A DNA stretch of 64,000 nucleotides from an uncultured Verrucomicrobiales bacterium. Lineage in GTDB: Bacteria > Verrucomicrobiota > Verrucomicrobiia > Verrucomicrobiales > Akkermansiaceae. Location: positions 1-64,000 of the forward strand of contig CAJQKQ010000005.1 in NCBI GenBank assembly GCA_905478925.1, given 5' to 3'. The stretch's first letter is position 1; every line of letters begins with the position of its first letter. Made by a program: the position numbers and the translations under genes. Below, one piece after another: positions 31,659 to 59,469 of this stretch. Under the pieces are notes generated by a model that was not told where the DNA came from, ran no database searches, and saw only the letters and a list, made by a program, of their open reading frames with translations.

Positions 31659-33431
31659 TCAGCCAAGATTGCTTGAGGGACGGTGTTTCAGTTGCTTACG
31701 TTCCTTCGGCGAAGTGAAGTGCCATGCGACGAGGAGGCCGGCGAGGAGGAGGAGGATCCAGAGACGGGCGAGCGGGTCGGGGGCGGTGTGGAGCTGGAGA
31801 GAGGCGGAGTTTGAGACGGCGGCGAGCTCGGAGGGGGCGCAGGCGCTGAGGTCGGCTTCGCGGGTGTCGGCAAAGTGGACGGCGGCTTGGAGGAGGGATT
31901 GGTCGTCCTGGGAGACGGTGAGGAAACCGGGCTGGGAGGGGGCGCGATTGACGGGCGGTGCGGGGACGGATTTTCCTGCGGAATCGGTGGCGGAGACTTC
32001 GACCGTGATGCCGGGAGCGGAGGCGATGCGAATGGTCTGGCTGGTTTCGAGGTTGAGCGCCTGGGAGGCGATCTTGGCATCGCGGAGGGACTCGGCGAAG
32101 CGGTGAAGGAGGACGATGAAGGCGGGTTGCTGGGTGGAGTTGGAGAGGCGCAGGTCGAAGTTAAAACAGAGGATGCGCTTGCTGGCGTTTTCGCGGAGGA
32201 AGATGAGCGGGCGTTTCTCCTGCCAGAGGAGGACGCGATCCTCGGGGAGGCGGGGGAGTTGGAGTGTCTCGCGGACGAGCAGCGCCTGCCAGTTGATGCC
32301 GTCCATAAGAGGATGCGACTCGGCGAGGATCCCGCCTTTGAGATATTTCCCGGCAGAGGTGGGATCCTCGACGAAGAGGATGGCGTGGGTCTCCGGGAGG
32401 GCGGGATCGAGGGGATCGTAGGAGGTGATGACGAGGTCGGACGATGCCGCATCAGTGGAGGGGCGGGTGGACTCCAAAGAGCGGAGGAGCTTTTCCGTGA
32501 GATCGGCAAAGCCCGGGGAAGTGGCGGTGAAGAGGTTCAAGGCTTTGGGCCTCGGGGCGATGATGGGGAGGGTGTCATCGAGTGTGAAGGCGTCCGGGGT
32601 GAGGGTGAGGCGGACGTTTTCCGCTCCCTCGGGGAAGGCCGCAGAGAGGGTGACGAAGGATCTCGGGGCGAGGTCGAAGCTGCGGGGTTCGGTGGTGCTG
32701 CCGGATGCGTTGAGCGACCAAGAACGGGTGGCGGTCGAGTCGCCGTAGTTGCGGACGATGGCCTGGAAGGTGAGCGCTCCCTCCTTTTGTCTGAAGCTGA
32801 TGCCGGTGAAGCCGACGTTGCCCGTGGGCTTGCCGACGGCGATGAGCTGCGACTCGTAGGGCAGCGCCTCGGCGGGGGTGTCGGTGAGGTAGATGACGAT
32901 CCCGTCCTTGGAGACGATGGAGCGGGCGAGGCGGAGGGCGTAGGATGGATCGATGATGCCGCTATCCAGCGAGAGGTTTTCGAGGGCGTCGAGGAGTTCG
33001 TCGGTGGACTCGCCGGCGTATAGGCGGTCGGCGCCGGGGACGGAGGGCAGCAGGGTAAGCTCCATGGTCGAGGCGCTGCCCTGGAGAGCGGGGAGCTTGT
33101 CGCGGAGGGCGGCGATGGCGTCCTTTTTGAAGACCGTCATCGAGGCGGAGGAATCAATGACGACAGCGACGCGCTGGACGGAATTTTCCTTGTCGAAGCG
33201 CGGCTCTGCGAGGAACCAGGTGAGCAGGAGGACAGCGAGCAACTGCATCCACAGAGGGACGGAGGGGATGATACGCTCGAAGCGTCGGCCGGAGGTGGCC
33301 TCGCGCTGCGTGCGCTCAAGCAGGAACAGGGTGGAGACCGGGAGGGTGATGGATTTCCGCTGGAGGAAATGGATCGCAAGGATCGCCGGGATGGCGAGCA
33401 GGGTCAGGAGGCCGAGAGGGTTTGCGAACAT
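31659..33431 (-). CDS. BatA/VWA-domain membrane protein
   Basis: 590-residue inner-membrane protein. The N-terminal BatA-type region has two membrane helices (FANPLGLLTLLAIPAILAIH and SVPLWMQLLAVLLLTWFLAE), then a von Willebrand factor A fold with the MIDAS start VVIDSSASMTVF. A large periplasmic middle precedes a C-terminal helix (LWILLLLAGLLVAW). Proteins of this kind occur with MoxR ATPases and DUF58 proteins, but none are next to it here. Start at ATG 33431; an in-frame GTG at 33446 is possible. An AAGNNNN heptad tract lies directly upstream. Confidence 0.85.
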   Translation of the reverse strand: MFANPLGLLTLLAIPAILAIHFLQRKSITLPVSTLFLLERTQREATSGRRFERIIPSVPLWMQLLAVLLLTWFLAEPRFDKENSVQRVAVVIDSSASMTVFKKDAIAALRDKLPALQGSASTMELTLLPSVPGADRLYAGESTDELLDALENLSLDSGIIDPSYALRLARSIVSKDGIVIYLTDTPAEALPYESQLIAVGKPTGNVGFTGISFRQKEGALTFQAIVRNYGDSTATRSWSLNASGSTTEPRSFDLAPRSFVTLSAAFPEGAENVRLTLTPDAFTLDDTLPIIAPRPKALNLFTATSPGFADLTEKLLRSLESTRPSTDAASSDLVITSYDPLDPALPETHAILFVEDPTSAGKYLKGGILAESHPLMDGINWQALLVRETLQLPRLPEDRVLLWQEKRPLIFLRENASKRILCFNFDLRLSNSTQQPAFIVLLHRFAESLRDAKIASQALNLETSQTIRIASAPGITVEVSATDSAGKSVPAPPVNRAPSQPGFLTVSQDDQSLLQAAVHFADTREADLSACAPSELAAVSNSASLQLHTAPDPLARLWILLLLAGLLVAWHFTSPKERKQLKHRPSSNLG

Positions 33432-33440
33432 GGTGAGGGA

Positions 33441-33475
33441 AAGCACGAAGGACTAAGCATGAAGTCCGAAAGGAA
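33441..33475. repeat. Heptad-repeat tract upstream of BatA-like gene
   Basis: AAGCACG, AAGGACT, AAGCATG, AAGTCCG, AAAGGAA in exact register, 10 bp upstream of the ATG. In the mRNA it reads as NNNNCTT units. Confidence 0.85.
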
Positions 33476-33516
33476 GAAGTTGTGACGGTGATGAGAACTA
33501 GCGGGGATGGGGGGGA

Positions 33517-33551
33517 GTGACAAGTGCCGGGTGCCGAGTGATCAGTGGTAG
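33517..33551. repeat. Heptad-repeat tract, GTGNNNN type
   Basis: GTGACAA, GTGCCGG, GTGCCGA, GTGATCA, GTGGTAG in perfect register, in the spacer between the DUF2071 gene and the BatA-like gene. GTGATCA and GTGCCGA recur in the tract upstream of DUF2071. Confidence 0.85.
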
Positions 33552-33625
33552 AGGCTTGGGTTGGGGGAGGCAAAGGCTTGAGTGCCGGGCAGTTGCCGGC
33601 TCGCCCCTTCTTGGGGAAGAGCAAG

Positions 33626-33663
33626 ACTATAGTACTGTGGGCGTTCTGGAGAACGCCTAGCCC
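33626..33663. repeat. Hairpin at the DUF2071 gene 3' end
   Basis: GGCGTTC-TGGA-GAACGCC core, with flanking ACTGTG and TACAGT nearly complementary. May act as a transcription terminator or be a REP-type element. Confidence 0.5.
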
Positions 33664-34403
33664 TACAGTTTCTTGAGGGGAAATATGGTGACGTCGACGG
33701 GGAGGGCGGAGAGCATGGAGGCGGGAGGGCTGTTCGGCACGGAGAAGTTGTTGAGGGCGAAGGGGGTGGTGGAGCAGGTGGCCTCGGGCATGGGCTCGAT
33801 ACGGTAGGGGCTGTGGTGGACCATTCCGCTGAAGAGGTTTCCTTTGGCATCGGTGGAGAAGAGGCGGTAGCGCTCGACGAGAAACCACTCGAGGCTGCCT
33901 TGCTCTGCGGGGGCGGGGGAGATGGATTTCGGATAGGAGAAAATGGATTCCGGGAGTTGATTGTTTTTTCTGATGCTGCGGTAGCGGATGTTTCCGGAAT
34001 CCACGGAGGAGGACATGCGGGCGTGTTCGTAGGGAAGGTTGAAGCCGCGGCGGGCGATTTCTACGGCGAGAGGTTGGTTGCAATCGAGGGAGAAGAACCA
34101 GACTCCGGGGTTGCCGTTATCGTCGAAGACGTAGGTGCGGAGGTTGAGTTCGTGGAACCATGAGAGCCATGGCAGCGGCGGCAGGCCGACCGGGCGGATG
34201 CGCTGCATGAGGAAGGGGACGATGCCGAGCCATGCCTGGCCGTCGAAGGTATCGACGTGAAGGCCGGGAGGGAGGCGGGAGGCGATGATTTCCTGGTCGA
34301 CTGGCCAATGGAAGAAGCCGAGGGATGCCCAGCGTTGCTTCATCACCGGGAAGCCGGACGGGCGGTCGCGTTGAGCGAGGCGTTGGGCTTTGGTGGGAGG
34401 CAT
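33663..34403 (-). CDS. DUF2071 (YqjF-like) protein
   Basis: 246-residue soluble protein of the DUF2071 family, whose function is unknown. Typical blocks are SLGFFHWPVDQEIIASRLPP, LHVDTFDGQAWLGIVPFLM and FHELNLRTYVFDDNGNPGVW. It is transcribed in the same direction as the polyketide synthase gene but separated from it by 233 bp carrying a heptad tract. Whether it belongs to that cluster is uncertain. Confidence 0.85.
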   Translation of the reverse strand: MPPTKAQRLAQRDRPSGFPVMKQRWASLGFFHWPVDQEIIASRLPPGLHVDTFDGQAWLGIVPFLMQRIRPVGLPPLPWLSWFHELNLRTYVFDDNGNPGVWFFSLDCNQPLAVEIARRGFNLPYEHARMSSSVDSGNIRYRSIRKNNQLPESIFSYPKSISPAPAEQGSLEWFLVERYRLFSTDAKGNLFSGMVHHSPYRIEPMPEATCSTTPFALNNFSVPNSPPASMLSALPVDVTIFPLKKL

Positions 34404-34444
34404 TAGTTTTCAGTTTGAAGGCTAGGTTGATGGAGAGTTTGCTA

Positions 34445-34472
34445 GTGCCGAGTGATCAGTGATCAGTGGGAA
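34445..34472. repeat. Heptad-repeat tract upstream of DUF2071 gene
   Basis: GTGCCGA, GTGATCA, GTGATCA, GTGGGAA in register, about 41 bp upstream of the ATG at 34403. In the mRNA it reads NNNNCAC. Confidence 0.85.
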
Positions 34473-34636
34473 GACTAGGATTCTGGATTTTTTTTGCCGC
34501 TAAGGAAGAGAAGTTCACTGAGCTGAATTCTAATAATTCCGAGTTCACCATGGTCTCATTTTTCTCCCTCAACCAGTCTCCTTATTTTCGAAATTCAATT
34601 TGGCGAACGTCTCTTCCTTGGTGGTTGGAAATTGTT

Positions 34637-35665
34637 TCATCGGGAGAGGTGACAGGAGTGGGCGGCGAAGCCGGCTCCGAAGGCGGTGAGCCAGAGGCAG
34701 GTGTCGTCGGGGTTGGTGCGTAGGCGCTCCTCGAGGGCGAAGAGGACGGAGGGGCTGGACATGTTGCCGTGGCGGAGGAGGACTTCCCGGGTTTCGGTGA
34801 GGTTGAAGCTGGGGATGGCGGCTTCGATGGCCTCAATGACATCGCGTCCGCCGGAGTGGGCGACGATCTGGTCGGGCTCCGCGCTGCGGCGGTTGTAGAG
34901 GGTGGATACGGCGGCGGCGGCGAGGTTTGGGACGCTGCGGTGGAGCTGGTTTTTGAGTTTTCCGCCGGAGTTGGTGAAGCGGATTTTCTCGCGGTCGGCG
35001 GGGACGTGGTGGGTGTCGAAGCCGTGAAATTTCCAGCCGGTTGCGGTAGATTGCTCCCCGGAAAGGATGGCGGCGGCGGCTCCGTCGCCGAACAGGCAGA
35101 GTGAGATCAGGACGCCGGGATCGTCGTCGATATAGAAGGCAGCGGAGGAGATCTCGACGGCGACCATTGCGACGCGGTGGGTCGGGTTTGCAGCGAGATA
35201 TCCTTGCGCGGCGCGGAGGGTGGGGATGGCCGCGCCGCAGCCGAGGCCGACGAGATCGCAGAGATAGGTGTCGGGGCGGAGGCCGGCCTTTTCCGAGACG
35301 TAGCTCGATGGCCCGGGGCAGAGGTAGCCGGTGCATGTGCAGAGGAACAGGGCGTCGATCTCAGCCGCTTTGATCCCGGCCTTGGCGATGGCCTTTTCGA
35401 GCGCGGCGATGGCGAGATTGGGTGCGTGGGTTTCGAAGGAGCGGTTCAGTTCCTCCGCGTCCTTCTTGAAGACCGGGCCGAGATCGGGGGATGTGAACTG
35501 GCGGTGGCTGATCCCGGAACCGCTGTTGGTGAGGATCTTTTCGAGGAGGGAAAGGGATCGGGATTTGAGGCCGCCAATGTCCGGATGGGATTGTAGGGCG
35601 GACCATGTTTCCGGCTGGGTGAAGGTGTGCGGCGGGTTGGCGGTTGCGAGGGAGGTGAGATACAT
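34637..35665 (-). CDS. Type III polyketide synthase (chalcone/stilbene synthase-like)
   Basis: Homodimeric ketosynthase that extends an acyl-CoA with malonyl-CoA units and cyclises the product. The catalytic triad is visible: Cys143 in VGLGCGAAIPTL, His270 in QIVAHSGGRDVIEA and Asn301 in RHGNMSSPSVLFAL. Length is 342 residues. The FAD oxidoreductase and methyltransferase genes lie just upstream on the same strand. The same three activities make methylated and oxidised alkylresorcinol-type lipids in the Streptomyces srs operon, so a phenolic lipid or alkylquinone product is plausible. The starter unit is unknown. Confidence 0.92.
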   Translation of the reverse strand: MYLTSLATANPPHTFTQPETWSALQSHPDIGGLKSRSLSLLEKILTNSGSGISHRQFTSPDLGPVFKKDAEELNRSFETHAPNLAIAALEKAIAKAGIKAAEIDALFLCTCTGYLCPGPSSYVSEKAGLRPDTYLCDLVGLGCGAAIPTLRAAQGYLAANPTHRVAMVAVEISSAAFYIDDDPGVLISLCLFGDGAAAAILSGEQSTATGWKFHGFDTHHVPADREKIRFTNSGGKLKNQLHRSVPNLAAAAVSTLYNRRSAEPDQIVAHSGGRDVIEAIEAAIPSFNLTETREVLLRHGNMSSPSVLFALEERLRTNPDDTCLWLTAFGAGFAAHSCHLSR

Positions 35666-35673
35666 TCGGGAGA

Positions 35674-35701
35674 GTGGGTAGTAAAAAGTGATCAGTGGAA
35701 G
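35674..35701. repeat. Heptad-repeat tract upstream of polyketide synthase gene
   Basis: GTGGGTA, GTAAAAA, GTGATCA, GTGGAAG in register, 9 bp upstream of the ATG at 35665. It lies in the 53-bp spacer after the FAD oxidoreductase gene. Confidence 0.8.
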
Positions 35702-35718
35702 AACTGTTCGCTACGCGT

Positions 35719-36720
35719 TTAGCGGATGAGGTGGAGGATGGGTTTCATTGGGGCGTGGCTGAGGATGGGGAGTGCTGCGGGGTGGAAGAGCAGGGGATGG
35801 ATGAGTTTTGCTGCGGTGAGACGTTTTCTGAACGCCTTGTGTAGGGAGGTTTGGATTGCTTTGCAGGTATCGGGCCATGGGGTTTTTCCTTCGGCGAAGG
35901 CGATCAGATGGGGGAGTGCGATTTCTGCGGACTGGAAGGCCATGGTCATGCCGTTTCCGGTGAAGGGGGGGATGATGGCATGGGAGTCGCCGAGCGCGAG
36001 AACTCCGGGCATGGGTTCCTGGAGGCCGAGTCCGAAGCCTGCGACGGCGGTGAACGAGCCTTCCTTCCATTCCGCATCCCGGATCCGTTGTGCTAGATCT
36101 GTGTTGCCGTTGCCTTCGAGGTAGGCGGGGAGAAGGGCGGCATGCTTGGTCTTGATGGAGCTGTCGATTTTGAAGAGGCCGCAGGCATTGCTCCAGCCGT
36201 CCTCGATCGGGGTGATGCCGAGGTAGCCGCCCGGGCCACTGTGCATTTCAAGCTCGGCGGTGGTGGTGATCCCACGGATGTGCGCCTTGAGGCCAATCCA
36301 GTTACCTTTGACGGGTCTGCGCCCTGCTGCCCAGACAAGACCCGGAGCACCGGGCTGTGGTTTCATGCGGGATCTGGTTTGGAGATCGACCCCGCTGCGG
36401 ATGGCCATTTGCTGCAGGCGGTCGTCGAGGAGGTGTCTGGATATGGCAAGCGCCGGCTCGCTGAGGGTGTTGCGCCGCAGCGGGCGGTTGCCGGAAAACC
36501 AGGATAGGCTGCGGTGCGGGAGCGCATCGGTGAGGGTTTCCGAGATTCCCAGGCGCTCCAAGGTGTCCGGCGAGATGCCGGAGATGAATTCGCCGCAGAC
36601 CCGGTGGCGCGGATACGATCCCGCCTCGTGGAGGGTCACGGGGAGGCCGTGATTCCGGAGGGCAATGGCGAGGGAGAGCCCGCTGAGCCCGCCTCCGATG
36701 ATCGTGATAGATTCCGTCAA
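35719..36720 (-). CDS. FAD-dependent oxidoreductase (geranylgeranyl-reductase/hydroxylase-like)
   Basis: 333-residue flavoprotein. The N-terminal nucleotide-binding motif is ITIIGGGLSGLSLAIALRNH. HRVCGEFISGISPDTLERLG is the substrate-side block typical of geranylgeranyl-reductase-like enzymes, and the second FAD motif is LALGDSHAIIPPFTGNGMTM. Lying between the methyltransferase and the type III polyketide synthase genes, it probably hydroxylates or oxidises the polyketide product. Confidence 0.88.
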   Translation of the reverse strand: MTESITIIGGGLSGLSLAIALRNHGLPVTLHEAGSYPRHRVCGEFISGISPDTLERLGISETLTDALPHRSLSWFSGNRPLRRNTLSEPALAISRHLLDDRLQQMAIRSGVDLQTRSRMKPQPGAPGLVWAAGRRPVKGNWIGLKAHIRGITTTAELEMHSGPGGYLGITPIEDGWSNACGLFKIDSSIKTKHAALLPAYLEGNGNTDLAQRIRDAEWKEGSFTAVAGFGLGLQEPMPGVLALGDSHAIIPPFTGNGMTMAFQSAEIALPHLIAFAEGKTPWPDTCKAIQTSLHKAFRKRLTAAKLIHPLLFHPAALPILSHAPMKPILHLIR

Positions 36721-36758
36721 GCCATGGAAGCTATCACCGCTTCGCCTGCATGCGAGGG

Positions 36759-37400
36759 CTACTTTTTGCGGGCGACCATGCGAATGGATCCACGCCAGTC
36801 CGTTGTTTCCGTGATCCGGTAATCCGCCGGGTCGAGTCCGAGGGCGGCGGGCAGTTCCCCAGGGCGGAATCCCGCCTCGATGCTCACGCGCATGTCGTGG
36901 CGAGTGTATGGGTGGACGAATGGAGTCGCCAGTTTTCCCATAAACAAAGGGATATGTGCTCTGTGAGGTTCACTGGTAATGATCGCTTTAAACGATCGAA
37001 TGAAACGACCCAGTGAAGAAAGTTCCATCTCTGTGAAATGGTGGAGAAAGAGGTTGGCGATGAGTGTTCCGCCTTGGATATCTGGTGTTTGGGCGAAGAG
37101 ATCGCCCTGGATCCAATTGGCATGGGCGGGCAGATCCGCAGGGGGAGGGGCGAGATCATAGGCAGCGATGGGAACGCCCGGACGAGCCCCGGCAATCTTG
37201 GTGAGTAGGTTACCATCACCCGCGCCGACCTCGGTGATGGAGGAGGTATCGGGCGGGATATTCTGAAGGATCCAGGATTCGCTGCCCATGAAACGGTTGA
37301 TGCGACGGAGGTCGCGGCGGGAGCGGATCGCGCCCGGATCATCGTGCGAGATGCTGTCGAGGATCTCCGGGGTGAGTTTGCGGGTGGAAAGATTGTTCAT
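36759..37400 (-). CDS. Class I SAM-dependent methyltransferase of the polyketide cluster
   Basis: 213-residue methyltransferase. The SAM-binding glycine loop is SITEVGAGDGNLLTKIAG, and a following acidic residue sits in the second strand (IAAYDLAPP). The N-terminal segment IRSRRDLRRINRFMGSESWI is characteristic of the methyltransferases I associate with type III polyketide synthase loci. It is first in the minus-strand gene order, 38 bp before the FAD oxidoreductase. Start at ATG 37400; an in-frame start at 37433 is possible. The methyl acceptor is not known. Confidence 0.8.
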   Translation of the reverse strand: MNNLSTRKLTPEILDSISHDDPGAIRSRRDLRRINRFMGSESWILQNIPPDTSSITEVGAGDGNLLTKIAGARPGVPIAAYDLAPPPADLPAHANWIQGDLFAQTPDIQGGTLIANLFLHHFTEMELSSLGRFIRSFKAIITSEPHRAHIPLFMGKLATPFVHPYTRHDMRVSIEAGFRPGELPAALGLDPADYRITETTDWRGSIRMVARKK

Positions 37401-37461
37401 TTCCGGGTCGGGTTTCGAAGTCACTGTTTGCAAAGAAAACCGTTATGTAGGAGAAACGGCT

Positions 37462-38064
37462 ATGAAAATTTCCACATACACCGGCGGCATGGTGCAGACG
37501 AACGGCTATCTGGTGGAGACCACGGAGGGAAATTTTCTCGTCGACGCGCCTGCGGGGATCACTTCCTGGCTGGATGAAAAGGGGATACGGGTGGATGCGC
37601 TCTACCTGACGCACCAGCATTACGATCATGTGGAGGATGTGGCGGCGCTGCGTGGAAAAGGAGTGAAGGTGTATGCTTGGGCGCCCTACTCGAAGGATCT
37701 CACGCTGGAATCCTACGGATCGAGTTGGGGCTTGCCGGAGGTTGCGGATTTTCAGGTGGACGAGCTGATCGTGGAAGGGGACGGGAAGATGTTCGGCACC
37801 GCCGTGAAGGTGGGTCATGTGCCCGGTCATTCTGCGGACAGCCTGACGTTTTACGTGCCGGCTGAGGGGCTTGTTTTCGCGGGGGATGCTCTTTTCGCCG
37901 GCTCGGTTGGCCGCTGCGACCTTCCTGGCGGCGATTTCGAGCTGCTTCTTTCCGGTATACGGAGGGAGCTGCTGACGTTGCCAGAAGAAACGAAAGTTCT
38001 ATCCGGTCACGGTGGGGCGACAACGGTGGGCCGCGAGAAGGTGAGCAACGGCTATCTCAAGTAG
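37462..38064 (+). CDS. Metallo-beta-lactamase-fold hydrolase (glyoxalase II-like)
   Basis: 200-residue binuclear metal hydrolase. The metal-binding motif is LTHQHYDHVEDVAAL, with later ligands in VGHVPGHSADSLTFYVP, FAGDALFAGSVGRCDLPG and VLSGHGGATTVG. The fold and spacing are like small glyoxalase II-type enzymes, but the substrate is not determined. AGGAG lies 11 bp before the chosen ATG. Element copy A (mobile_element at 38086) begins 21 bp after the stop codon. Confidence 0.9.
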   Translation: MKISTYTGGMVQTNGYLVETTEGNFLVDAPAGITSWLDEKGIRVDALYLTHQHYDHVEDVAALRGKGVKVYAWAPYSKDLTLESYGSSWGLPEVADFQVDELIVEGDGKMFGTAVKVGHVPGHSADSLTFYVPAEGLVFAGDALFAGSVGRCDLPGGDFELLLSGIRRELLTLPEETKVLSGHGGATTVGREKVSNGYLK

Positions 38065-38085
38065 AAGGATATATCATTCCTAAAT

Positions 38086-38343
38086 GAGTGTGATTTTTAT
38101 CGATGTTTCACACACGGTAGGGCTGATCCGGCTCGGTCAGCCCACTTTAAAAATCTAGCGACCCGTCTCACCCACACGGAAGTGAGATCCCGGGGGAAAT
38201 GCAGTGTCTTGGCGTGGCTTCACTCCCTTTCCGGAGATACGGCGCTTGCGTTTTTGATCAGGGTCGACCGAGCCGGATCAGCCCTACCATGATTGAATGG
38301 GCTTGGGCTGCCTCAGGCGAATACACCGATAAAAATCACATTT
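38086..38343 (+). mobile_element. MITE-like element, copy A
   Basis: 258 bp. Terminal inverted repeats: TGTGATTTTTATCGATGT at 38089-38106 and ACACCGATAAAAATCACA at 38323-38340, one mismatch. Flanked by a perfect 9-bp direct repeat TTCCTAAAT at 38077-38085 and 38344-38352. Subterminal inverted repeats GGTAGGGCTGATCCGGC and GCCGGATCAGCCCTACC lie at 38117 and 38288. It codes for no transposase. Starts 21 bp after the MBL hydrolase stop, between convergent genes. Confidence 0.9.
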
Positions 38344-38504
38344 TTCCTAAATCGGCAGTTCGGATCGGATTTTTCACCACAGAATCGTAAAGGTCGCAGA
38401 AGGAGTCGGAGCCGGGCTTGAGTTTGGGAGTTGGGATTCGAAGAAACGGAAAAGGCACGCATTTTTCCGCCGGGTGATGCAGTTTTTCACTGCGGAATAT
38501 GGGG

Positions 38505-40982
38505 TCATTCCGGGACGACGAGAGCCTTCGGCGGGGCTTTCAGGAGGATGTCGTTCTGTGCTTCCGGAGGGGAGGTGAAGTGGACGTTTTTCCAAGTGGG
38601 CTTGGAGAGTGGACCGGTGCCCCTGAACTGGAACAGGCCGTAGAAGGGGCGCAGCGGGAGAGTGATCAGCCCGAGCAGGCCACGGGCGTTGAGGCGTATC
38701 GTGAAGTCGATGACCTTGGTGCTGAGATCTACCTCGCCATCCCCCGTGAATGTGACGGAAGTCGTGGCTGTCTGGAAATCGCGGGTGCTCAGGATGCCGT
38801 CATTGATGTCGAAGGTGAAGAATGCCGATTTGGCGCGCTCGAAGCCCATACGCTTGTCGTTGAGCACTGTTGCCATGACGGTGGAGAGCGGGCCGAAGAC
38901 GGGAACGGACAAGAGTTCCGCACCCTCCAGCCCCAGGAGGCCTTTGGCGCTCATCGTTTTCACGTCGGATCCGGTGATGCCGAAATCGATGCGGCCCGTG
39001 ACGAGGCCTCCGCCCTTCATTTTGAAACCGTATGTGGAGGCCAGCGAGGTCATCGAAAGTTTAGACCAGCTGAGCTCTCCGGAAAACCGGGAATTGCCGG
39101 AGTTGAGTAGGTTTCCGGTGACGGATCCATCGAAGGCGCCGAGAGAGAGATCCGAGATGGTGACCTTTTTACCACGGATGGAAACGGTCGCCTTTGGTTT
39201 ACTGAGCGTCAGATCCTCGCCGAGGAATTTGTAGTCGGCCTTGCCGGAGCTACTGAATTTTACCGTGAGGTCGGTGCGACCCTGCGGCGTGACATCGACG
39301 ACCCCGGAACCTCTCAGCATGGGAGGGCTGTGGAAGCGGTATTGTTCGAGGCTGTCGGCGATTTTCGGAGAGAACAAGCGAATGAGTGGAGCTGCCCAAA
39401 CCTCGCCAGAAACCGCTTCGACAGCGACGGTTTTGGTCGGTCTGTCGTAGCGGATCCTGCCTACCTTTGCGGTGCCTTTTGTGGGGCCGCCGTAGGTTTT
39501 GCGTAACGGATAGTCGGTGTAATCGAAGGTTACGCTGCCGTCGTGGAAATCGAGCTCGTTGTGGCTGATGTTGAAAGAGCAGTTGGCCGCCTTCACCGGA
39601 ACGCCCCTGTAGGAGAGGTTTTTTAGGGTGCCATGTCCGCGGTATTTCCAGGCGTAGCGATCAGCGGTATCGAAGGAGCCATCGAGGAAAATCTCGGTGG
39701 ACGGATTTTTGTTTTCGGTGAAGTTGGCGATGATTTTCTCAAGCGGTTTTCCGGGGAAAAACGGTTTAAAGAGTGGGGCGGGCAGCGTCGAGTGGAGGGT
39801 CAGTTGTACGGCGCTGCCCTGTTTGAGGAGTTTCGCCTCTGCCTTGCCGTCCGGGCGGATGAGGGTGAGATCGCGGAGGAAGAGGTTTCCGTCCTGCCAT
39901 GAGAACCATGTTTCGAGAGAGTCGAAGGAAACGCCACGAAACATGATTGAATCGCAGAGGGCATGCCCGGTTAGGTGCACGACAGGTTTCGAGCTGTCGC
40001 TGAGTTTGAAATCACCCGCAGATTGGATTTGCTGGCGGCCTGCGATTAGGAGATCGATGCCGACTGGAGCATCGAGCCAGGATTTCAGGAGGCGGGGGAT
40101 TTCGATCGAAGACTCGAGGTCGAAACGCCCCTCGTGTGCGAGCAGTCGGTAGTCCGCATGTCCGCTGAGGGTTCCCCTCGCATCGTGGGCGGAGAATGAG
40201 CTTACCGTGAGCAGGTAGCCGAGCAGGGTTCCGCGGGCGCTGACGTCCTCCAGTCTGTATTGCTTCTTCTCGACGGAGGGCGCATCGATCTGGAATTCCG
40301 CTTTCAAGGATCCCTTGTCCTCGAGGTTTCCGTCGATCTCAACGTGGATTTTCGGAAGAGATTCGGTTCCGAAATCCCAGTGCTGCATCTCGTCGAGGAT
40401 ACTTGCGATCAATTCCCTGCGGCGACCGTCGTTTCCCTGCTCATCAGTCGGGCTGTTAGGAGCTTGGTTTCCCTGCAGCCTCGCCGCGATGGTTACGGCA
40501 ATTCCGCCGACTTCGCCACGGCCTTTGCGGATTTCAATGAGGTTTTCGGAGGAAATCAGTATGGTCCCGTAGATTCCGGTGAAATCGAGGGATTCTCCGG
40601 AGGGTTCCTTGGGATCGACGGGAAGCAGGAGCCGCGCATTCCTCAGAATGGCTTTCCGGATTCGGAATTCGCCGCCCGCGAGCTTGGCGTTATCCAGTAC
40701 TAGCTCGACCCGCTCCAGCCGTGAGATCTCGTGGATGCGTTCTGGCTCCGCGAAGATGCGAACATTCTGGGCGACGAATCCACGCAATGGGATGTAGGTG
40801 AGGGAGGCGATTTCCACGTGCACGCCGTGCTTGGAAATTTCCTGTTCGATCGCCTCGCGCCATTCTTCCGGAAGCCCGGTCTTGTTCGCCCAGTACAGCC
40901 CGAACACGCAGAGCGGAATGAGTGCAAACAGCACCAGCCAGACGACTGTCCTGAGGTTGCGGACTAGGTGGAAGCGGAGCAT
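38505..40982 (-). CDS. AsmA/YhdP-like envelope protein
   Basis: 825-residue protein with one N-terminal membrane helix (LRTVVWLVLFALIPLCVFGL) and a long periplasmic part built of repeating beta-strand segments. The C-terminal region (FFTFDINDGILSTRDFQTAT, GDGEVDLSTKVIDFTIRLNA, FRGTGPLSKPTWKNV) matches the AsmA-like C-terminal domain. Such proteins are now considered bridge-like lipid carriers between inner and outer membranes. Transcribed as the last of a minus-strand run that includes radC, yicC and recJ. Confidence 0.85.
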   Translation of the reverse strand: MLRFHLVRNLRTVVWLVLFALIPLCVFGLYWANKTGLPEEWREAIEQEISKHGVHVEIASLTYIPLRGFVAQNVRIFAEPERIHEISRLERVELVLDNAKLAGGEFRIRKAILRNARLLLPVDPKEPSGESLDFTGIYGTILISSENLIEIRKGRGEVGGIAVTIAARLQGNQAPNSPTDEQGNDGRRRELIASILDEMQHWDFGTESLPKIHVEIDGNLEDKGSLKAEFQIDAPSVEKKQYRLEDVSARGTLLGYLLTVSSFSAHDARGTLSGHADYRLLAHEGRFDLESSIEIPRLLKSWLDAPVGIDLLIAGRQQIQSAGDFKLSDSSKPVVHLTGHALCDSIMFRGVSFDSLETWFSWQDGNLFLRDLTLIRPDGKAEAKLLKQGSAVQLTLHSTLPAPLFKPFFPGKPLEKIIANFTENKNPSTEIFLDGSFDTADRYAWKYRGHGTLKNLSYRGVPVKAANCSFNISHNELDFHDGSVTFDYTDYPLRKTYGGPTKGTAKVGRIRYDRPTKTVAVEAVSGEVWAAPLIRLFSPKIADSLEQYRFHSPPMLRGSGVVDVTPQGRTDLTVKFSSSGKADYKFLGEDLTLSKPKATVSIRGKKVTISDLSLGAFDGSVTGNLLNSGNSRFSGELSWSKLSMTSLASTYGFKMKGGGLVTGRIDFGITGSDVKTMSAKGLLGLEGAELLSVPVFGPLSTVMATVLNDKRMGFERAKSAFFTFDINDGILSTRDFQTATTSVTFTGDGEVDLSTKVIDFTIRLNARGLLGLITLPLRPFYGLFQFRGTGPLSKPTWKNVHFTSPPEAQNDILLKAPPKALVVPE

Positions 40983-40995
40983 ACGACAAATTTCC

Positions 40996-41691
40996 CTAGG
41001 AATTTAGCACACCTGCGGCTCGGAAGGAAAAGAAACCCGGGTGGCCGGGTGAGGGGCGGCCGATGATGACATGGTCGACCAGCCGGATCTGCATGATTTC
41101 GGCGGCTTTTGCGAGTCTGTCCGTGATCGTATGGTCGGCGCGGCTGGGCGAGGGATCACCGGAGGGGTGGTTGTGGATGAGAATGAAACCGTATGCGTTC
41201 CTAGAGATTACGGGGCGCAAGATTTCACGGGGGTGGGCGGTGGTCTCGTTGACCGTGCCGATGGATACTGTGGTGGTGCTGGTGTGCTCCAGGCGTGAAT
41301 TGACCGTCACCACCAGGGCGTTCTCGTTGGGCAGATTGCTGAGTTGGTGGCCGAAGTGCTCGTAGATGAGCTCCGGTGAATCGAGCGGCTGGAGGCGGAT
41401 CTTTTCCCGCGACAGGCGGCTGCCGAGTTCGAAGGCGGCTGCCAGCTTGCAGGCCTTCGCGAGGCCGATGCCCTTGTTGTTCATGTATTCCGCCACGCTC
41501 AATCTGCCCAATTCCTGGAGGCCACCGTATTTCTCCAGAAGATCCCCGGCAACCTGGATGACGTTCCTGCCGACGATCCCGGAGGTCAGAAAAATCGCCA
41601 TGAGTTCGGCGTTGCTCAGGGATGCCGCGCCGTATTTGTAGATCTTCTCGCGGGGAAGATCCTGGTCTGCGGAATCGTTGAGAAGCGACAT
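40996..41691 (-). CDS. radC: RadC-family JAB-domain protein
   Basis: 231 residues: an N-terminal helix-hairpin-helix-like part (LSVAEYMNNKGIGLAKACKL) followed by a JAB/MPN domain with the metal motif FILIHNHPSGDPSPSRAD. The RadC name is historical and a repair role is not established. It lies 4 bp after the yicC-like gene and 13 bp before the AsmA-like gene, so all three are probably co-transcribed. Confidence 0.93.
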   Translation of the reverse strand: MSLLNDSADQDLPREKIYKYGAASLSNAELMAIFLTSGIVGRNVIQVAGDLLEKYGGLQELGRLSVAEYMNNKGIGLAKACKLAAAFELGSRLSREKIRLQPLDSPELIYEHFGHQLSNLPNENALVVTVNSRLEHTSTTTVSIGTVNETTAHPREILRPVISRNAYGFILIHNHPSGDPSPSRADHTITDRLAKAAEIMQIRLVDHVIIGRPSPGHPGFFSFRAAGVLNS

Positions 41692-41695
41692 GGGA

Positions 41696-42577
41696 TCACT
41701 CGATATTCTGCACTTGTTCGCGGAGCTTTTCGAGCTCGGTTTTCGCTTCGACTACAGTCTGTGCGATGAGCGCGTCGTTGGCCTTCGAGCCGATCGTGTT
41801 GAACTCACGGAAAAGCTCCTGGCACAGGAAATCAAGTGAGCGGCCGGAGGCTTCGGCGGAATGGGTGTATTCGTGGAACTTCGTGAAATGCGAGTGCAGC
41901 CGGGTGAGCTCTTCGGAAACGTCGCAACGATCCGCAAACAGCGCGACTTCCTTGGCGAGGCGGTCGTCATCGCTTGCCAAGGAGATTTGCATGTCCGCAA
42001 GACGTTTCAGGAGTAACTCTCGCTGGCGTTCCGGACGGGATGGTGCGTGGTCGGCGATCGTCTGGGTGAAGGCCATGAGCTTGCCGAGACGGGAGAGAAA
42101 ATCCTCCTGTAGGTGTTTTCCTTCGGTGGCACGCATCGCGTTGAGATTTGTGATCGCCTGCTCCAGAGCGGGGGCAATCACCTCCCATGCTTTCTCGGGA
42201 TCGATGGAATCCGACTCGTCGATCTCGATGATGCCTGGCTGGCGGATGAAGTCGGCGGGGGTGGGGAGAAGAGGGCGGCCGATGGAGAGGGAGAGTTCGG
42301 AAAAGGCCGACTCGAAGGATTTTGCGAGTTCCGCATTGATCCGGATCTGCCCGGAGGAGGAGCCCTCCGTCTTCTCGAGGCGGATCGAGAGTTGCACGCG
42401 TCCCCGTGATATGTGGGGCAGGGTTGCCTGCCTGACGCGGCTCTCAAGGGATTGCAGCGAGCGGGGGAGGTTGGCGACGATCTCCGCCTGTTTCCGGTTG
42501 ATCGCCGAGGCCTCGACACTGGCCTGCCACTCGTCCGTCGTATGGGTTCCACGGCCGAAGCCGGTCATCGATTGCAT
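41696..42577 (-). CDS. YicC-family endoribonuclease
   Basis: 293-residue protein with the YicC N-terminal start MQSMTGFGRG and the C-terminal DUF1732 block (SGRSLDFLCQELFREFNTIG). YicC-type proteins are endoribonucleases linked to small-RNA turnover. I chose the ATG at 42577 to match the family's start; an upstream ATG at 42589 adds four residues. It lies between recJ and radC on the same strand. Confidence 0.92.
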   Translation of the reverse strand: MQSMTGFGRGTHTTDEWQASVEASAINRKQAEIVANLPRSLQSLESRVRQATLPHISRGRVQLSIRLEKTEGSSSGQIRINAELAKSFESAFSELSLSIGRPLLPTPADFIRQPGIIEIDESDSIDPEKAWEVIAPALEQAITNLNAMRATEGKHLQEDFLSRLGKLMAFTQTIADHAPSRPERQRELLLKRLADMQISLASDDDRLAKEVALFADRCDVSEELTRLHSHFTKFHEYTHSAEASGRSLDFLCQELFREFNTIGSKANDALIAQTVVEAKTELEKLREQVQNIE

Positions 42578-42629
42578 GGTGCAATTCAAGGCCGGAGGCC
42601 GTGGCTTGTCGATGGTGGATTGGCTTAGA

Positions 42630-44330
42630 TCAGGGAGCCACGGCGGCTTTCACGCCCTGGATGATGATCTGCAGGCTGGTTTTTCCGCGGTAGGTATTGC
42701 GGTCGATGGTGAAAGCGATATCCCACGGCGGCTCGGGAAGTTCATGCTCTCCGCCGCCGAAGAAAACAGCATCCTGCTCATGGTATCCTTGGCGGAGCAT
42801 CAGGCGGAGATGGTTGTTCTTCATATGGAAAGGCGGGCGGCTGAGCCCGACATTCCGTGAAACGAATACCGGCTGCGGGTTGGCGTTTCCGAAGGGTTGC
42901 AGTAGCTCGTAGCTGGCCAGGAAATCGAGGGAGAGCTGTGAAAAACCGATCTCGGCGTCATAAATGAGACGCGGGCGGCGATCTTCCTCGGAGGTGTTGG
43001 CTAGCACGTATTCGGCGAAGTTCGCGCGGAAGCGATCCATGTTTTTCTCGCGGATCGAAAGTCCGGCGGCCATGGCATGCCCGCCACCGGCGATGAGGTC
43101 GCCCTCGCAGGCGCGGATGGCATCGACCAGTGAGACTCCCTCGATGCTCCTGCCGGATCCTTTTCCGACGCCCTCGGCGTCGATCGCGATGACGAATGTG
43201 GGCTTGTGGTATTGCCGCATCAGGCGCGAGGCGACGATGCCGACCACGCCGTGGTGCCATGAGCGAGATCCGATCACGATGACCGGATCTTTCGCAGGGT
43301 CGAAGCCGCCGGAGAGCTGTTCGGTGGCTTCCCTGCGGATCAGGCTTTCGTGTTCTTGGCGCTGGCGGTTGTAGCGATCGAGTTTCTTCGCAAGTTCCTC
43401 GGCGGATCTGCGGCAGTCCGTGTTGAGTGTGGCCAGGGCGTCCTCGGGGAAATCCATGCGGCCTGCGGCGTTGATGCGCGGGCCGATGCGGAAACCGACA
43501 TCCATGGATGTCGCGGTGCCGTTCATTCCCGTGATTTCCTGGAGAGCCCTCAGGCCGGGGTTTAGCGTTTTGGGAAGAGCCTTGAGTCCGTGGCGGACGA
43601 GCAGGCGGTTCTCGTCGATAAGTGGCACGATGTCCGCGACCGTGGCGACTGCGACGAGATCGAGGAGTTCTTTGAGATCCAACGCGGCGGGACGAGCTTT
43701 CAGGAGGGCGTGTCCGACCTTGAAAACCACCCCGGCGGCGCAGAGGTAGGTGAAATCTTTCCCGCATTTCGGGTTTACCAGCGCCGTGCAATTCGGTCTT
43801 CCTTCGGGATCCGGCTCATGATGGTCGACGATGATCACATCGATTCCCATTTCCCGCAGGTGGGCGACCTCTTTGACGGAGACGGTGCCGCAATCGACTG
43901 AGATTAGGAGATCGGGTTTCTCTCCCTCGGAAAGGCAGCGCTCGATTGCGGCGATGCTGATTCCGTATCCCTCCGCACCCCGGCGAGGGATGAACGGCCT
44001 CGGCTCCAACCCGTAGGCGTGGAGGATTTTCGACATCAGGGTGACCGAGGAGACCCCGTCGACATCGTAGTCGCCGTAAATGCAGACTTTTTCCTGTGAG
44101 TCGACAGCCTTGAGAATGCGCTCGACGGCCGGATGCATGTCGGGAATCAGGAACGGATCGCTGAGATCTTTCAGCTTCGGGCGGAGGAAGGATTCCATCG
44201 CCTCGCCCTCGGGAATTCCCCGCTGGCTGACGAGATGTCGCAGGATTTCAGGGAAGCTTTCGTCGGGGGGGTGCGAGCCCGGGATGAAGGGCTCGCCGCG
44301 TTGGATCCATCGGAAAGCCGTTGCGCTCAT
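42630..44330 (-). CDS. recJ: Single-stranded-DNA-specific exonuclease RecJ
   Basis: 5'-3' single-strand exonuclease of the DHH superfamily, used in recombination and mismatch repair. 566 residues. Motifs: IYGDYDVDGVSSVTLMSKIL, VDCGTVSVKEV, the DHH triad in IIVDHHEPDPEG, and NAAGRMDFPEDALATL. Start at ATG 44330; an in-frame start at 44351 is not conserved. The MITE-like copy B occupies its upstream region, with its end 45 bp from the ATG. Confidence 0.95.
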   Translation of the reverse strand: MSATAFRWIQRGEPFIPGSHPPDESFPEILRHLVSQRGIPEGEAMESFLRPKLKDLSDPFLIPDMHPAVERILKAVDSQEKVCIYGDYDVDGVSSVTLMSKILHAYGLEPRPFIPRRGAEGYGISIAAIERCLSEGEKPDLLISVDCGTVSVKEVAHLREMGIDVIIVDHHEPDPEGRPNCTALVNPKCGKDFTYLCAAGVVFKVGHALLKARPAALDLKELLDLVAVATVADIVPLIDENRLLVRHGLKALPKTLNPGLRALQEITGMNGTATSMDVGFRIGPRINAAGRMDFPEDALATLNTDCRRSAEELAKKLDRYNRQRQEHESLIRREATEQLSGGFDPAKDPVIVIGSRSWHHGVVGIVASRLMRQYHKPTFVIAIDAEGVGKGSGRSIEGVSLVDAIRACEGDLIAGGGHAMAAGLSIREKNMDRFRANFAEYVLANTSEEDRRPRLIYDAEIGFSQLSLDFLASYELLQPFGNANPQPVFVSRNVGLSRPPFHMKNNHLRLMLRQGYHEQDAVFFGGGEHELPEPPWDIAFTIDRNTYRGKTSLQIIIQGVKAAVAP

Positions 44331-44375
44331 AGTGATGCAAAGAACCTGCACCGCACCGTGCGGTGAGACAAGGGC

Positions 44376-44630
44376 GGGTGTGATTTTTATCGGTGTATTT
44401 GCCTGACGCAGCCCAAGCCATTCAATATTGGTAGGGATGATCCGGCTCGGTCAGCCCTGATCAAAAACGCAAGCGCCGTATCCCCGGAAAGGGAGTGAAC
44501 CGATGGCAAGACACCGCATTTCTCCCGAGTTCTCACTTCCGTGTGGGTGAGGCGGGCTGCCAGATTTTTGAAGTGGGCTGACCGAGCCGGATCAGCCCTA
44601 CCGGGTGAAACACCGATAAAAATCACACCC
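44376..44630 (-). mobile_element. MITE-like element, copy B (inverted)
   Basis: 255 bp. Terminal inverted repeats GGGTGTGATTTTTATCGGTGT at 44376-44396 and ACACCGATAAAAATCACACCC at 44610-44630, a perfect 21-bp match. Direct repeats GACAAGGGC (44367-44375) and GACAAGGGT (44631-44639) match at 8 of 9 bases. Interior is the reverse complement of copy A. Begins 29 bp after the nuoK stop and lies upstream of recJ. Confidence 0.92.
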
Positions 44631-44659
44631 GACAAGGGTGGAAGCCCATATCGGAGGGT

Positions 44660-44980
44660 TCAGCCCTTCAGCGAGACCAGTTCATCGGTGTGGATGGTCT
44701 GGCGGGCGCGGTAGAGGGCGACGATGATCGCGAGGCCGACGGCGACCTCGGCGGCGGCAACCGTGATGACGAAGAAGACCAGCATCTGGCCATCGTAGTC
44801 GGGGAGGTCGTTGGCGGTGACCTTGAAGCGGGAGAAGGCGACCAGGGTGAGGTTCGCGGCGGAGAGCATGAGCTCCAGGCACATGAAGACGATGATGATG
44901 TTGCGGCGGAGCACGACGCCGGCGAGGCCGATGGAGAACAGGAGGCCGGAGACGAGGAGGTAGTCGTTGAGCGCTGGCAT
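44660..44980 (-). CDS. nuoK: NADH-quinone oxidoreductase subunit K
   Basis: Small membrane subunit of complex I. 106 residues with three membrane helices; the conserved glutamate lies in [20 protein letters not shown]. The last nuo gene here: nuoL, nuoM and nuoN, which usually follow, are missing, and a MITE-like element and recJ come next. The start codon is preceded by a heptad tract rather than a Shine-Dalgarno sequence. Confidence 0.96.
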
Positions 44981-44981
44981 G

Positions 44982-45016
44982 AAATTTGAAACTTTAAATT
45001 CTAAACCCTAAGGAAG
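44982..45016. repeat. Heptad-repeat tract upstream of nuoK
   Basis: AAATTTG, AAACTTT, AAATTCT, AAACCCT, AAGGAAG in exact register, from 2 bp upstream of the nuoK ATG almost to the nuoJ stop codon. Confidence 0.9.
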
Positions 45017-45018
45017 AT

Positions 45019-45585
45019 TTAGTTCGTTTGGCGTTTGGAGAGGACGACTACGCCGACGGTGGCGACGAGGAGGAGGATCCCGAGTATCTGGAGGGGGAGG
45101 TTGTATTGGGTGAAGAGTGTCTCACCGATGAGGTGGACATCGGGGAGCTTGCCGTTGGTGAGGGCTTCGTTGATCTTGGAGCCTTCGGGGTAGTCACCGG
45201 CAGCAGCGGCGAGGGTGGCTTTGTCGAGAATGGGTGCGCTCTGGTTTGGCAGTTTGTTGGAAAGGACGCCGATGAGTTGGATGAAAAAGATGCCGACGAG
45301 TGAGAGACCTGCCACCAGCGGTAGGTAGCTTTCGGTGCGGCGTTTCTCATCCTTGAGGTCGAGGAGCATGATGATGAAGAGGAACAGCACCATGATCGCG
45401 CCGGAGTAGACAAGGATCTGGATGACGCCGACGAAGAAGGCGGAGAGGCCGATGAAGAGCGCGGCGAGGCCGACGAAGGAGGTCACCATCGCAAGTGCGC
45501 TGGAGACGGGATTGCGGAAGGCGATGACCGCGCACGCTCCGATGAGCATGATGGTGGCAAACAACCAAAATAAATAGGAAGGCAT
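45019..45585 (-). CDS. nuoJ: NADH-quinone oxidoreductase subunit J
   Basis: Membrane subunit of complex I, 188 residues with five predicted helices. Features include the N-terminal LFWLFATIMLIGACAVIAFR and the conserved pi-bulge region VQILVYSGAIMVLFLFIIML. It lies between nuoI and nuoK in the usual order. The gap to nuoI is filled by a five-unit heptad tract. Confidence 0.95.
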   Translation of the reverse strand: MPSYLFWLFATIMLIGACAVIAFRNPVSSALAMVTSFVGLAALFIGLSAFFVGVIQILVYSGAIMVLFLFIIMLLDLKDEKRRTESYLPLVAGLSLVGIFFIQLIGVLSNKLPNQSAPILDKATLAAAAGDYPEGSKINEALTNGKLPDVHLIGETLFTQYNLPLQILGILLLVATVGVVVLSKRQTN

Positions 45586-45591
45586 CAGGTG

Positions 45592-45626
45592 AAATTCTAA
45601 ATCTTAAATTCTAAATCTGAAACGAA
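45592..45626. repeat. Heptad-repeat tract upstream of nuoJ
   Basis: AAATTCT, AAATCTT, AAATTCT, AAATCTG, AAACGAA: perfect AAANNNN register. Ends 6 bp from the nuoJ ATG and fills the nuoI-nuoJ spacer. Confidence 0.9.
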
Positions 45627-45628
45627 GA

Positions 45629-46195
45629 CTATTTCAGTTCGTTCCATTTGTTGACGAGTCCGACGCGGACGCCGCCGATTTCGTAGAGTTTTTTCTTATC
45701 GTGAACCATTTCGGCGCGGGAGGTGCCGGTGATGAGGTAGTCTTTTCGGAGGTAGATGGCCTGCTCGGGGCAGACTTCCTCACACATGCCGCAGTAGATG
45801 CAGCGTGTCATGTCGATGTCGAATTCAAAGGGGCGTTTCTCTACCTTTGCCCACTTGTCGTCGGAGGGGATTTCCGAAGGGATGATTTTGATCGCCTTTG
45901 GCGGGCAGATGAATTCGCAGAGCTGGCAGGAGACGCAGCGTTCGCGGCCCTGCTCATCGGTGACGAGGGTGGGCGCGCCGCGGTAGTATTCCGGCATGTG
46001 GTCGTCCCAGCGTTGCTCCGGGAACTGCATGGTCACGCCGAGGCCGGAGGAGGCGAGGCCTTCCGCTCCGTAGGACTTGCCGCGCAGGGATTTCACCGCG
46101 TGCATCATCGTGAGGAAAAATCCCTTGATGAGTGCGCCGAAGTAGATTTTTTCTCCTACGTTGAGTTTCGGTCGGGTGAGCTTGATGGTGGGCAT
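45629..46195 (-). CDS. nuoI: NADH-quinone oxidoreductase subunit I
   Basis: Peripheral-arm subunit with two [4Fe-4S] clusters (N6a and N6b). Both ferredoxin motifs are present: CVSCQLCEFICPPKAIKI and CIYCGMCEEVCPEQAIYL. 188 residues. Conserved N-terminal segment GEKIYFGALIKGFFLTMMHA. It lies between nuoH and nuoJ. Confidence 0.97.
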   Translation of the reverse strand: MPTIKLTRPKLNVGEKIYFGALIKGFFLTMMHAVKSLRGKSYGAEGLASSGLGVTMQFPEQRWDDHMPEYYRGAPTLVTDEQGRERCVSCQLCEFICPPKAIKIIPSEIPSDDKWAKVEKRPFEFDIDMTRCIYCGMCEEVCPEQAIYLRKDYLITGTSRAEMVHDKKKLYEIGGVRVGLVNKWNELK

Positions 46196-46215
46196 TTGAA
46201 GAAAGTTTGCTGGTT

Positions 46216-46236
46216 TTCAGTGTTCAGTTTTCAGGG
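46216..46236. repeat. Heptad-repeat tract upstream of nuoI
   Basis: TTTTCAG, TGTTCAG, TTTTCAG on the plus strand, three units in register, 20 bp from the ATG; in the mRNA CTGAAMA units. Shorter than the other nuo tracts and with a different fixed part. Confidence 0.65.
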
Positions 46237-46248
46237 CAGAAACTGAAC

Positions 46249-47520
46249 TTATGCGCGGAGCACTTTTGCGGGTGGTTCGGAGACCTTGGCGACCCAGATG
46301 ATGGCAGCTGTGACCACGGCGAGGAGGATGAGGCCTATCACGGTGATGGTGGAGGCCATGCCGGGGGCGGCGATGATGAGTGCGGCGAGGAAGACATTGA
46401 TGAGTGCGGCCTCGAAGAAGATGACCCAGCCGAGTTTCATGAGTTGGTCGTAGCGGAAGCGGGGAACCGTCCAACGGACGAGGATGAAGAACAGGATGAA
46501 GACGAGGAGTTTGGTGAGGAAGATGCCGACGTGGATGAAACCGCCGATGCGGAAGTCGCCGATGGAGAAATTCGCGATCGCTTCGTCGAAGCCGAAGCCA
46601 GCGGACCAGCCGCCGAGGAAGAGTGTGATGATGAGGGCGGAGCCGATGACCATTGCGGCATATTCGCCCATGAAGAACATCGCGAATTTCATCGAGGAGT
46701 ATTCCGTGTGGTAGCCGCCGACGAGTTCCGTTTCACACTCCGGGAGATCGAAGGGCATGCGGTTGGTTTCGGCGAAGATCGATACCGTAAAGATGATGAA
46801 CGCGATAAACGCGGGGATCATGAAAAGCGTGGTCTGCAGGCTGGGGAGAGAGAGTTTCCCATCCGTCCAGAACGGCAGCAGCAGCCAGCCGTTGTCCGCC
46901 TGTTCCTGGACGATGTTGTTGAGGTTGAGATCACCGAAATAGAGCAGGACAGGGATGACTGAAAGGCCGAGGCAGATCTCGTAGGAAATCATCTGCGCGG
47001 TGGAGCGGACGCCGCCGATGAACGGGAATTTGGAATTCGAGGACCAGCCAGCGAGGGTGATGCCGTAGACCGTGAGCGATGAGATTGCGAAGATGAACAG
47101 CGGCCCGACATCGAGATCCGCAATGACGAGTTTTTCGGTGCGGCCGAACAGGGTTACATCCGGCCCGAAGGGGACGACGCAGACGGTGATGAGCGCGGGG
47201 ACGACGGTGAGCACCGGGGCGAGCCAGTAGAAGGCCTTGCGGACGTGATCCGGGGTGAAATCCTCTTTAAGGAACAGTTTCAGGCCGTCGGCGATCGGCT
47301 GGACGAGGCCGAAGAGGTGAAAATCCTTTTTCGCGCCGAAAAGGGTGAGCGGAATGCCGACCCGGTTCGGGCCGACGCGATCCTGGATGATTGCGGAGAA
47401 CCTGCGTTCGAAATAGACGGAAAGCGGCACCAGCGGCAGGACCACCATAAAGGTGAACGCGACGATTTTCGTTATGATGATCGCAAGATCGATGAGGGTT
47501 GCGGTGACTACTTCGGGCAT
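46249..47520 (-). CDS. nuoH: NADH-quinone oxidoreductase subunit H
   Basis: Quinone-site membrane subunit of complex I. 423 residues with about nine to eleven helices. Family motifs: ERRFSAIIQDRVGPNRVG, LKLFLKEDFTP, GWSSNSKFPFIGGVRSTAQM and FAETNRMPFDLPECETELVGG. Slightly longer than the E. coli protein at the C-terminus. The start lies directly after a TAACNNN heptad tract that fills the nuoG-nuoH gap. Confidence 0.96.
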   Translation of the reverse strand: MPEVVTATLIDLAIIITKIVAFTFMVVLPLVPLSVYFERRFSAIIQDRVGPNRVGIPLTLFGAKKDFHLFGLVQPIADGLKLFLKEDFTPDHVRKAFYWLAPVLTVVPALITVCVVPFGPDVTLFGRTEKLVIADLDVGPLFIFAISSLTVYGITLAGWSSNSKFPFIGGVRSTAQMISYEICLGLSVIPVLLYFGDLNLNNIVQEQADNGWLLLPFWTDGKLSLPSLQTTLFMIPAFIAFIIFTVSIFAETNRMPFDLPECETELVGGYHTEYSSMKFAMFFMGEYAAMVIGSALIITLFLGGWSAGFGFDEAIANFSIGDFRIGGFIHVGIFLTKLLVFILFFILVRWTVPRFRYDQLMKLGWVIFFEAALINVFLAALIIAAPGMASTITVIGLILLAVVTAAIIWVAKVSEPPAKVLRA

Positions 47521-47531
47521 ATTCTTCCTAA

Positions 47532-47559
47532 TAACAATTAACCAATAACTTCTAACGAA
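47532..47559. repeat. Heptad-repeat tract, nuoG-nuoH spacer
   Basis: TAACAAT, TAACCAA, TAACTTC, TAACGAA: four perfect units with four fixed bases, ending at the nuoG stop and 12 bp upstream of the nuoH ATG. The fixed part differs from the AAANNNN tracts ahead of nuoJ and nuoK. Confidence 0.9.
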
Positions 47560-49317: not shown

Positions 49318-49397
49318 GACTGGAAAATGGGAGGCAAATTCAATGGCCGGAAGGCCTGCGCGGACTATGTCGGCGCTCGGGCGGCGCGGCAAGTGTG

Positions 49398-49419
49398 CTT
49401 TGTGAAATTTTTCACAAAG
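49398..49419. promoter_or_regulatory. CRP/FNR-family-type operator palindrome between nuoG and tlyA
   Basis: TGTGA-AATTTT-TCACA is an exact match to the CRP consensus TGTGA-N6-TCACA, within a longer palindrome of 10 of 11 pairs (CTTTGTGAAAT and TTTTCACAAAG). It is 80 bp upstream of nuoG (minus strand) and 91 bp upstream of tlyA (plus strand), so either could be controlled. The binding protein is inferred. Confidence 0.65.
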
Positions 49420-49509
49420 TCCGGTTTTCGGTGTTTTCAGGTATTATTCCGCCGAGATTGCTGGATTCCGTGATGGTGCGGTGCGGTGCGGTGCCCTAGA
49501 ACGTGCGGC

Positions 49510-59454: not shown

Positions 59455-59469
59455 AGTATAAAGACCACC

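Follow-up and report, generated by a model that had tools for sequence, protein, structure and literature searches.

REP-like doublets inside probable ISKra4-type MITEs of an Akkermansiaceae genome

Two classes of small bacterial repeat, REPs (associated with single-strand tyrosine transposases) and MITEs (associated with DDE transposases), are treated as separate; the element analysed here links them. Its inner core resembles GTAG REPs, REP dimers and REPINs in its GTAG-tagged hairpins and their inverted pairing, and the PVC group, Verrucomicrobia included, is known to have GTAG REPs of such anatomy; clustering, tandem reiteration and more than 100 sites are further likenesses (for GTAG REPs, excerpts of PMC3733652). 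The core differs from these REPs in that its hairpins stand far apart, with a spacer of about 115 bp, that no RAYT gene was found beside it, and that DDE-type ends flanked by target duplications here enclose the pair. With bacterial MITEs generally the whole element shares a short, non-coding body, inverted ends, high copy number and a strong fold, whereas it differs from RUP, NEMIS/Correia, ERIC and Nezha (the MITEs named in excerpts of PMC3733652) in its ends, its presumed ISKra4 enzyme and the independently spreading palindromic repeat inside. The third comparison is with ISKra4 insertion sequences (p-MULT 4, Mutator superfamily), whose superfamily makes duplications of 8 or 9 bp and has 18–39-bp ends in which the terminal cytosine is conserved, and whose ISMich2 group has two-ORF transposases with a −1 frameshift; our element is like them, and especially the two-ORF ISMich2 group, in end sequence, 8–9-bp target duplications and terminal G/C (excerpts of PMC3942029). 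It differs from these insertion sequences, which measure about 1.4 kb, in being shorter (190–280 bp), in carrying no transposase and in an interior unrelated to theirs. Among the papers listed by the literature searches, none describes a REP doublet in an ISKra4-type MITE in its title or abstract opening.

The window, a stretch of 64,000 nucleotides, belongs to contig 5 of a draft genome (3.80 Mb in 145 contigs, 94% complete), and the comparison material comprises one draft genome per species. Three copies, A to C, lie in the window, with the following features:

38077–38085, no strand: left target duplication of copy A, TTCCTAAAT, exact (9/9)
38086–38106, plus strand: left terminal inverted repeat of copy A, a probable ISKra4-type end with eroded outer bases, located by end matches
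38116–38288, plus strand: inner core of copy A, 173 bp, two REP-like GTAG-tagged hairpins in inverted orientation plus spacer, from inner-repeat matches, fold and core alignment
38116–38143 and 38261–38288, in inverted orientation: hairpin tips of the copy A core
38323–38343, minus strand: right terminal inverted repeat of copy A, located by end matches
38344–38352, no strand: right target duplication of copy A, TTCCTAAAT, exact (9/9)
44367–44375, no strand: left target duplication of copy B, GACAAGGGC, 8/9 match
44376–44630, minus strand: copy B, 255 bp, opposite in orientation to copy A, core at 44430–44602, from end and core matches
44631–44639, no strand: right target duplication of copy B, GACAAGGGT, 8/9 against GACAAGGGC, final base T
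59461–59469, no strand: left target duplication of copy C, AAGACCACC, 9/9
59470–59662, plus strand: copy C, 193 bp, with both ends kept and an internal deletion of a large part of the core's left half
59663–59671, no strand: right target duplication of copy C, AAGACCACC, 9/9

The preliminary description had set out copy A (38086–38343) as a 258-bp element between exact copies of TTCCTAAAT, with near-perfect ends, a second, subterminal inverted repeat and a fold on two levels, all of which is borne out. Its two ends differ by a single base over the inner 18 bp, and the outermost 3 bp are eroded (GAG and AAA against GGG in the family); the subterminal repeat is exact over 21 bp (38116–38136 and 38268–38288). 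As single-stranded DNA, the element folds with z = −8.55, a value equalled by none of 200 shuffles, and the whole MITE forms one long hairpin. Across the window we find six end matches at up to 3 mismatches, against 0.01 expected.

Over the whole genome, 75 sites match the 18-bp end TGTGATTTTTATCGGTGT and 112 the inner 21-mer, each at up to 2 mismatches and each with none for the reversed-pattern control. At least 27 two-ended members (collected at lengths of 100–600 bp, and spanning 193–279 bp) are present in this genome, all non-coding and none containing a transposase, which clearly disposes of the case, posed in the preliminary description as its refutation, that no copies exist beyond these three. 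The family consensus is 257 bp long and ends in GGGTGTGATTTTTATCGGTGTTT; members are 91–97% identical to it, with a median pairwise identity of 90%. Exact 9-bp target duplications flank 13 of the 27 copies, 15 agree at 8 or more of the nine bases and 19 at 7 or more, a level that 0 of 702 mismatched left/right flank pairs from different elements reach; the other eight copies have no such 9-bp repeat. One exact 8-bp and one exact 10-bp repeat also occur among the 27, and loci L002 and L014 have 7-bp flanking repeats, as judged by eye. Set against the mismatched-pair control, these duplications indicate that the family transposed. The first account of a MITE-like, non-coding, multi-copy element with 9-bp duplications and no transposase is confirmed, and was understated.

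An origin without any transposon, in which recombination spread a structured regulatory RNA or DNA repeat, would accord with the strong fold, with the apparently intergenic position of most copies (13 loci viewed) and with the occurrence of cores in tandem arrays (below). We give this explanation scarcely any credence, because regular 9-bp duplications, with 0/702 in the control, need staggered cuts at the target; in addition, no Rfam family reaches its gathering score in the window. Virtual empty sites made by joining the flanks at the 13 viewed loci give no convincing interrupted gene, a result that weighs neither way.

Several family members are internally deleted. Two-ended copies of 193, 196 and 197 bp are flanked by exact duplications, and a 72-bp minimal derivative (L085:1500–1571, on G000:C49), outside the length range of the two-ended set, consists of both ends plus 10 bp of core and has flanking duplications that match at 7/9 (counted by eye). 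Since all the deleted forms keep both ends and the three longer ones have exact duplications, they suggest that movement does not strictly depend on a complete core, unless the deletions postdate insertion.

The inner core is an independent REP-like unit with a distribution of its own, a point unseen in the preliminary description. It is 172–174 bp long, with GGTAGGGCTGATCCGGCTCGGTCAGCCC-type GTAG-tagged hairpins at both borders in inverted orientation, and it also occurs naked, that is, without the outer ends, in at least 12 copies in this genome, some of them in tandem. Tandem core arrays with flanking repeat DNA are found at L060:1705–2620 (G000:C42) and also at L061, L062 and L063, with a period of about 303 bp in the C42 array and of 230 bp for C11. 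Of 73 genomes of the genus, 19 (this one among them) contain the core end motif, mostly without MITE ends. Twenty-three cores were aligned with copy A as reference, four others being close to it in type or coming from this genome and G022; the tips hardly vary, and cores of other genomes are 62–78% identical to copy A. In G340, single GTAG hairpins that match the tips form dense clusters. A Y1/RAYT gene stands beside the core at 0 of 15 Y1 loci in this genome and at 0 of 30 loci in relatives, these 30 being a subset of the matches listed, so that the grounds for calling it a REP are its anatomy and copy number.

Naked cores behave differently at their borders. Of 17 examined, none attains a duplication score attained by 3 of 272 mismatched pairs, and searches with shifted boundaries also find no target duplications. 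This contrast, 9 bp when the core is wrapped and none when it is naked, is the sharpest single result of the analysis: one core exists in both states, told apart by footprint. It bears directly on one alternative, an ordinary MITE (an internal deletion of an ISKra4 element, or two ends that met) in which the palindrome is the element's own stem and naked cores are copies that lost their ends. The single long hairpin into which the whole element folds would suit such an origin, as would those copies in the genome that have one end and a core without the second end, but the lack of duplications at all 17 naked cores, the spread of the core through 19/73 genomes of the genus mostly without ends, and the match of its tips to clusters of single hairpins in G340 speak against it, and we regard it as improbable.

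Which enzyme moved the family is indicated by its ends. Searches of relatives with the end sequence only led to an insertion sequence in G196, a genome of the same family and another genus. It is present at both ends of one contig, with perfect 24-bp ends GGGTGTGATTTTTTCCGATGTTTT, and joining these parts via a 59-base overlap gives 1,444 bp with two ORFs that overlap a stretch of eight A in a −1 arrangement, a layout shared with the ISMich2 group (excerpts of PMC3942029). The product is best matched, among four families, by NF033572 (ISKra4 family transposase; E = 2.8e-49, 168 bits), a score below the curated cut-off of 205 yet 95 bits above the next family, and ORF B alone also matches the ISKra4 profile. 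The 13 outer bases at both its ends are identical to those of the MITE, and 20 of 23 bases agree with the MITE consensus end (counted by eye), an imperfect match to an element from another genus that lies at contig ends. G724, of the same genus as G196, holds an ISKra4 relic with the end AAAAATCACACCT; G353 encodes a transposase 44% identical to that of G196 inside a 1,467-bp insertion sequence that has GGGTGT ends (GGGTGTAACTG...) and lies between 9-bp duplications differing at one base. These three are the only genomes with ISKra4 matches at E 1e-20 among 260 of the family, and none of those from the window's genus has such a transposase at this threshold.

The proposed search for a full insertion sequence sharing the end thus succeeded in G196, and gave no such gene in the window's own genome. 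There, an ISKra4 profile search returns no match at E 0.001, the loci read have no transposase gene beside any end, and unpaired ends inspected on contigs C68, C46, C87 and C49 of G000 have no adjoining transposase. A MITE can outlive its source, and a transposase in the same genome is not among the defining features of a MITE.

The preliminary description had favoured the IS4 or IS5 groups on the strength of the 9-bp duplications, and a MITE of another DDE family (of IS4, IS5/IS903 or IS256 type), with the likeness to the G196 end due to chance or shared ancestry, would be consistent with the absence of an ISKra4 gene from the window's genome. Duplications of 9 bp do arise from several transposase families. 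On the other side, the end-only search reached an insertion sequence that combines the same 13 outer bases at both ends with an ISKra4 transposase, and the loci read have no other transposase beside such ends. We therefore consider another DDE family very unlikely and prefer ISKra4 to IS4 or IS5, because only one autonomous element with such ends came to light and its transposase belongs to the ISKra4 family, as judged from the ISKra4 profile and from reading of the loci. The duplications add to this, since those of the family are 8–10 bp and the superfamily makes 8–9 bp (excerpts of PMC3942029).

Copies A, B and C are thus, very probably, non-autonomous ISKra4-type MITEs that moved in trans and carry a REP doublet that also exists outside them. 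In this scheme an ISKra4-type, Mutator-like DDE transposase, absent from the assembly, would have acted in trans by binding ends of about 23 bp (putatively GGGTGTGATTTTTxxCGxTGTTT), and insertion through 9-bp staggered cuts would have left the duplications of about 9 bp. The REP-like doublet (172 bp) would ride inside, the MITE serving as its second vehicle, and may be either a mere passenger or a helper through its folding.

Ends of this kind enclose other contents elsewhere. The end search of other genomes gives 23 loci, 16 with paired ends and seven without; 11 of the 16 same-plan elements have duplications of 8–9 bp, a count that takes the best of lengths 8, 9 and 10 and stands without a mismatched-pair control on that set, and the remaining five (L231, L215, L125, L243 and L203) have no convincing duplication. 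Seven elements in G044, from another family of the order, enclose GTAGCCGC/GGCTTTTGAGTGCGG doublets, and exact 9-bp duplications flank four of these elements; two in G389, of the same genus as the window's genome, carry the window's core; a single element in G359 (L222) contains a GGAGCGCGAGTCTTTAGCTCGC doublet, and a single one in G686, a member of a different order of the class, a GGAGCGCGGCTGTGC doublet. That the same ends hold different doublets in different genomes counts further against the palindrome being simply the stem of an ordinary MITE. Two kinds of these foreign insides are also seen outside such ends. The GGCTTTTGAGTGCGG repeat stands without ends as pairs at loci of G008 and of G389, and by itself in G340 (L180, L210 and L206), and the GCGAGTCTTTAGCTCGC repeat, which forms the inside of the ISKra4-type MITE L222, is present in four copies around a Y1-family gene in the same genome, G359 (L278:1104–2817). 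A locus in G005 (L216) with its right end cut is suggestive, and only that, of a wrapper without a core; a 6-bp repeat, CCGGTA, lies at the core's edges, and loss by slippage would also fit. A wider contig scan gave six end-pattern matches, four in MAG LH_M34 and single ones in Nitrospira and Planktophila; the latter two have no second end and were set aside as chance.

The variety of these insides raises the tentative possibility, one we would not yet favour over its opposite, that ISKra4-type ends are a recurrent vehicle, with unrelated REP-like doublets, whose other mode of spread leaves no target duplications, separately packaged in several Verrucomicrobiae lineages and thereby gaining a second, RAYT-independent route of spread. 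If packaging is recurrent, it would explain how REP families persist without a cognate RAYT, and would offer a natural contrast in which to test what the hairpins contribute.

Y1-family genes occur in these genomes in several settings. At 77–1280 of the window lies a Y1-type (IS200/RAYT-like) transposase gene split into overlapping ORFs (77–565 and 552–1280), one of the 15 Y1 matches in the genome; the core motif is not nearby. Elsewhere in the genus, the Y1/RAYT genes of L251, L253 and L264 are flanked by GTAG palindromes of their own, for example GTAGCCGTGGGTTTCAACCCACGG, in inverted orientation. The hairpin clusters of G340 (L195 and L196; G340:C4:1–15500 and 32500–49500) comprise 37 and 51 single or paired GTAG hairpin sites at up to 3 mismatches and surround apparent glycosyltransferase and sugar-nucleotide genes, names that are guessed from sequence. 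Contigs C10 and C16 of G340 carry many near-equal Y1-family genes of about 367–378 codons with identical scores, which probably represent a recently multiplied IS200/RAYT-like element.
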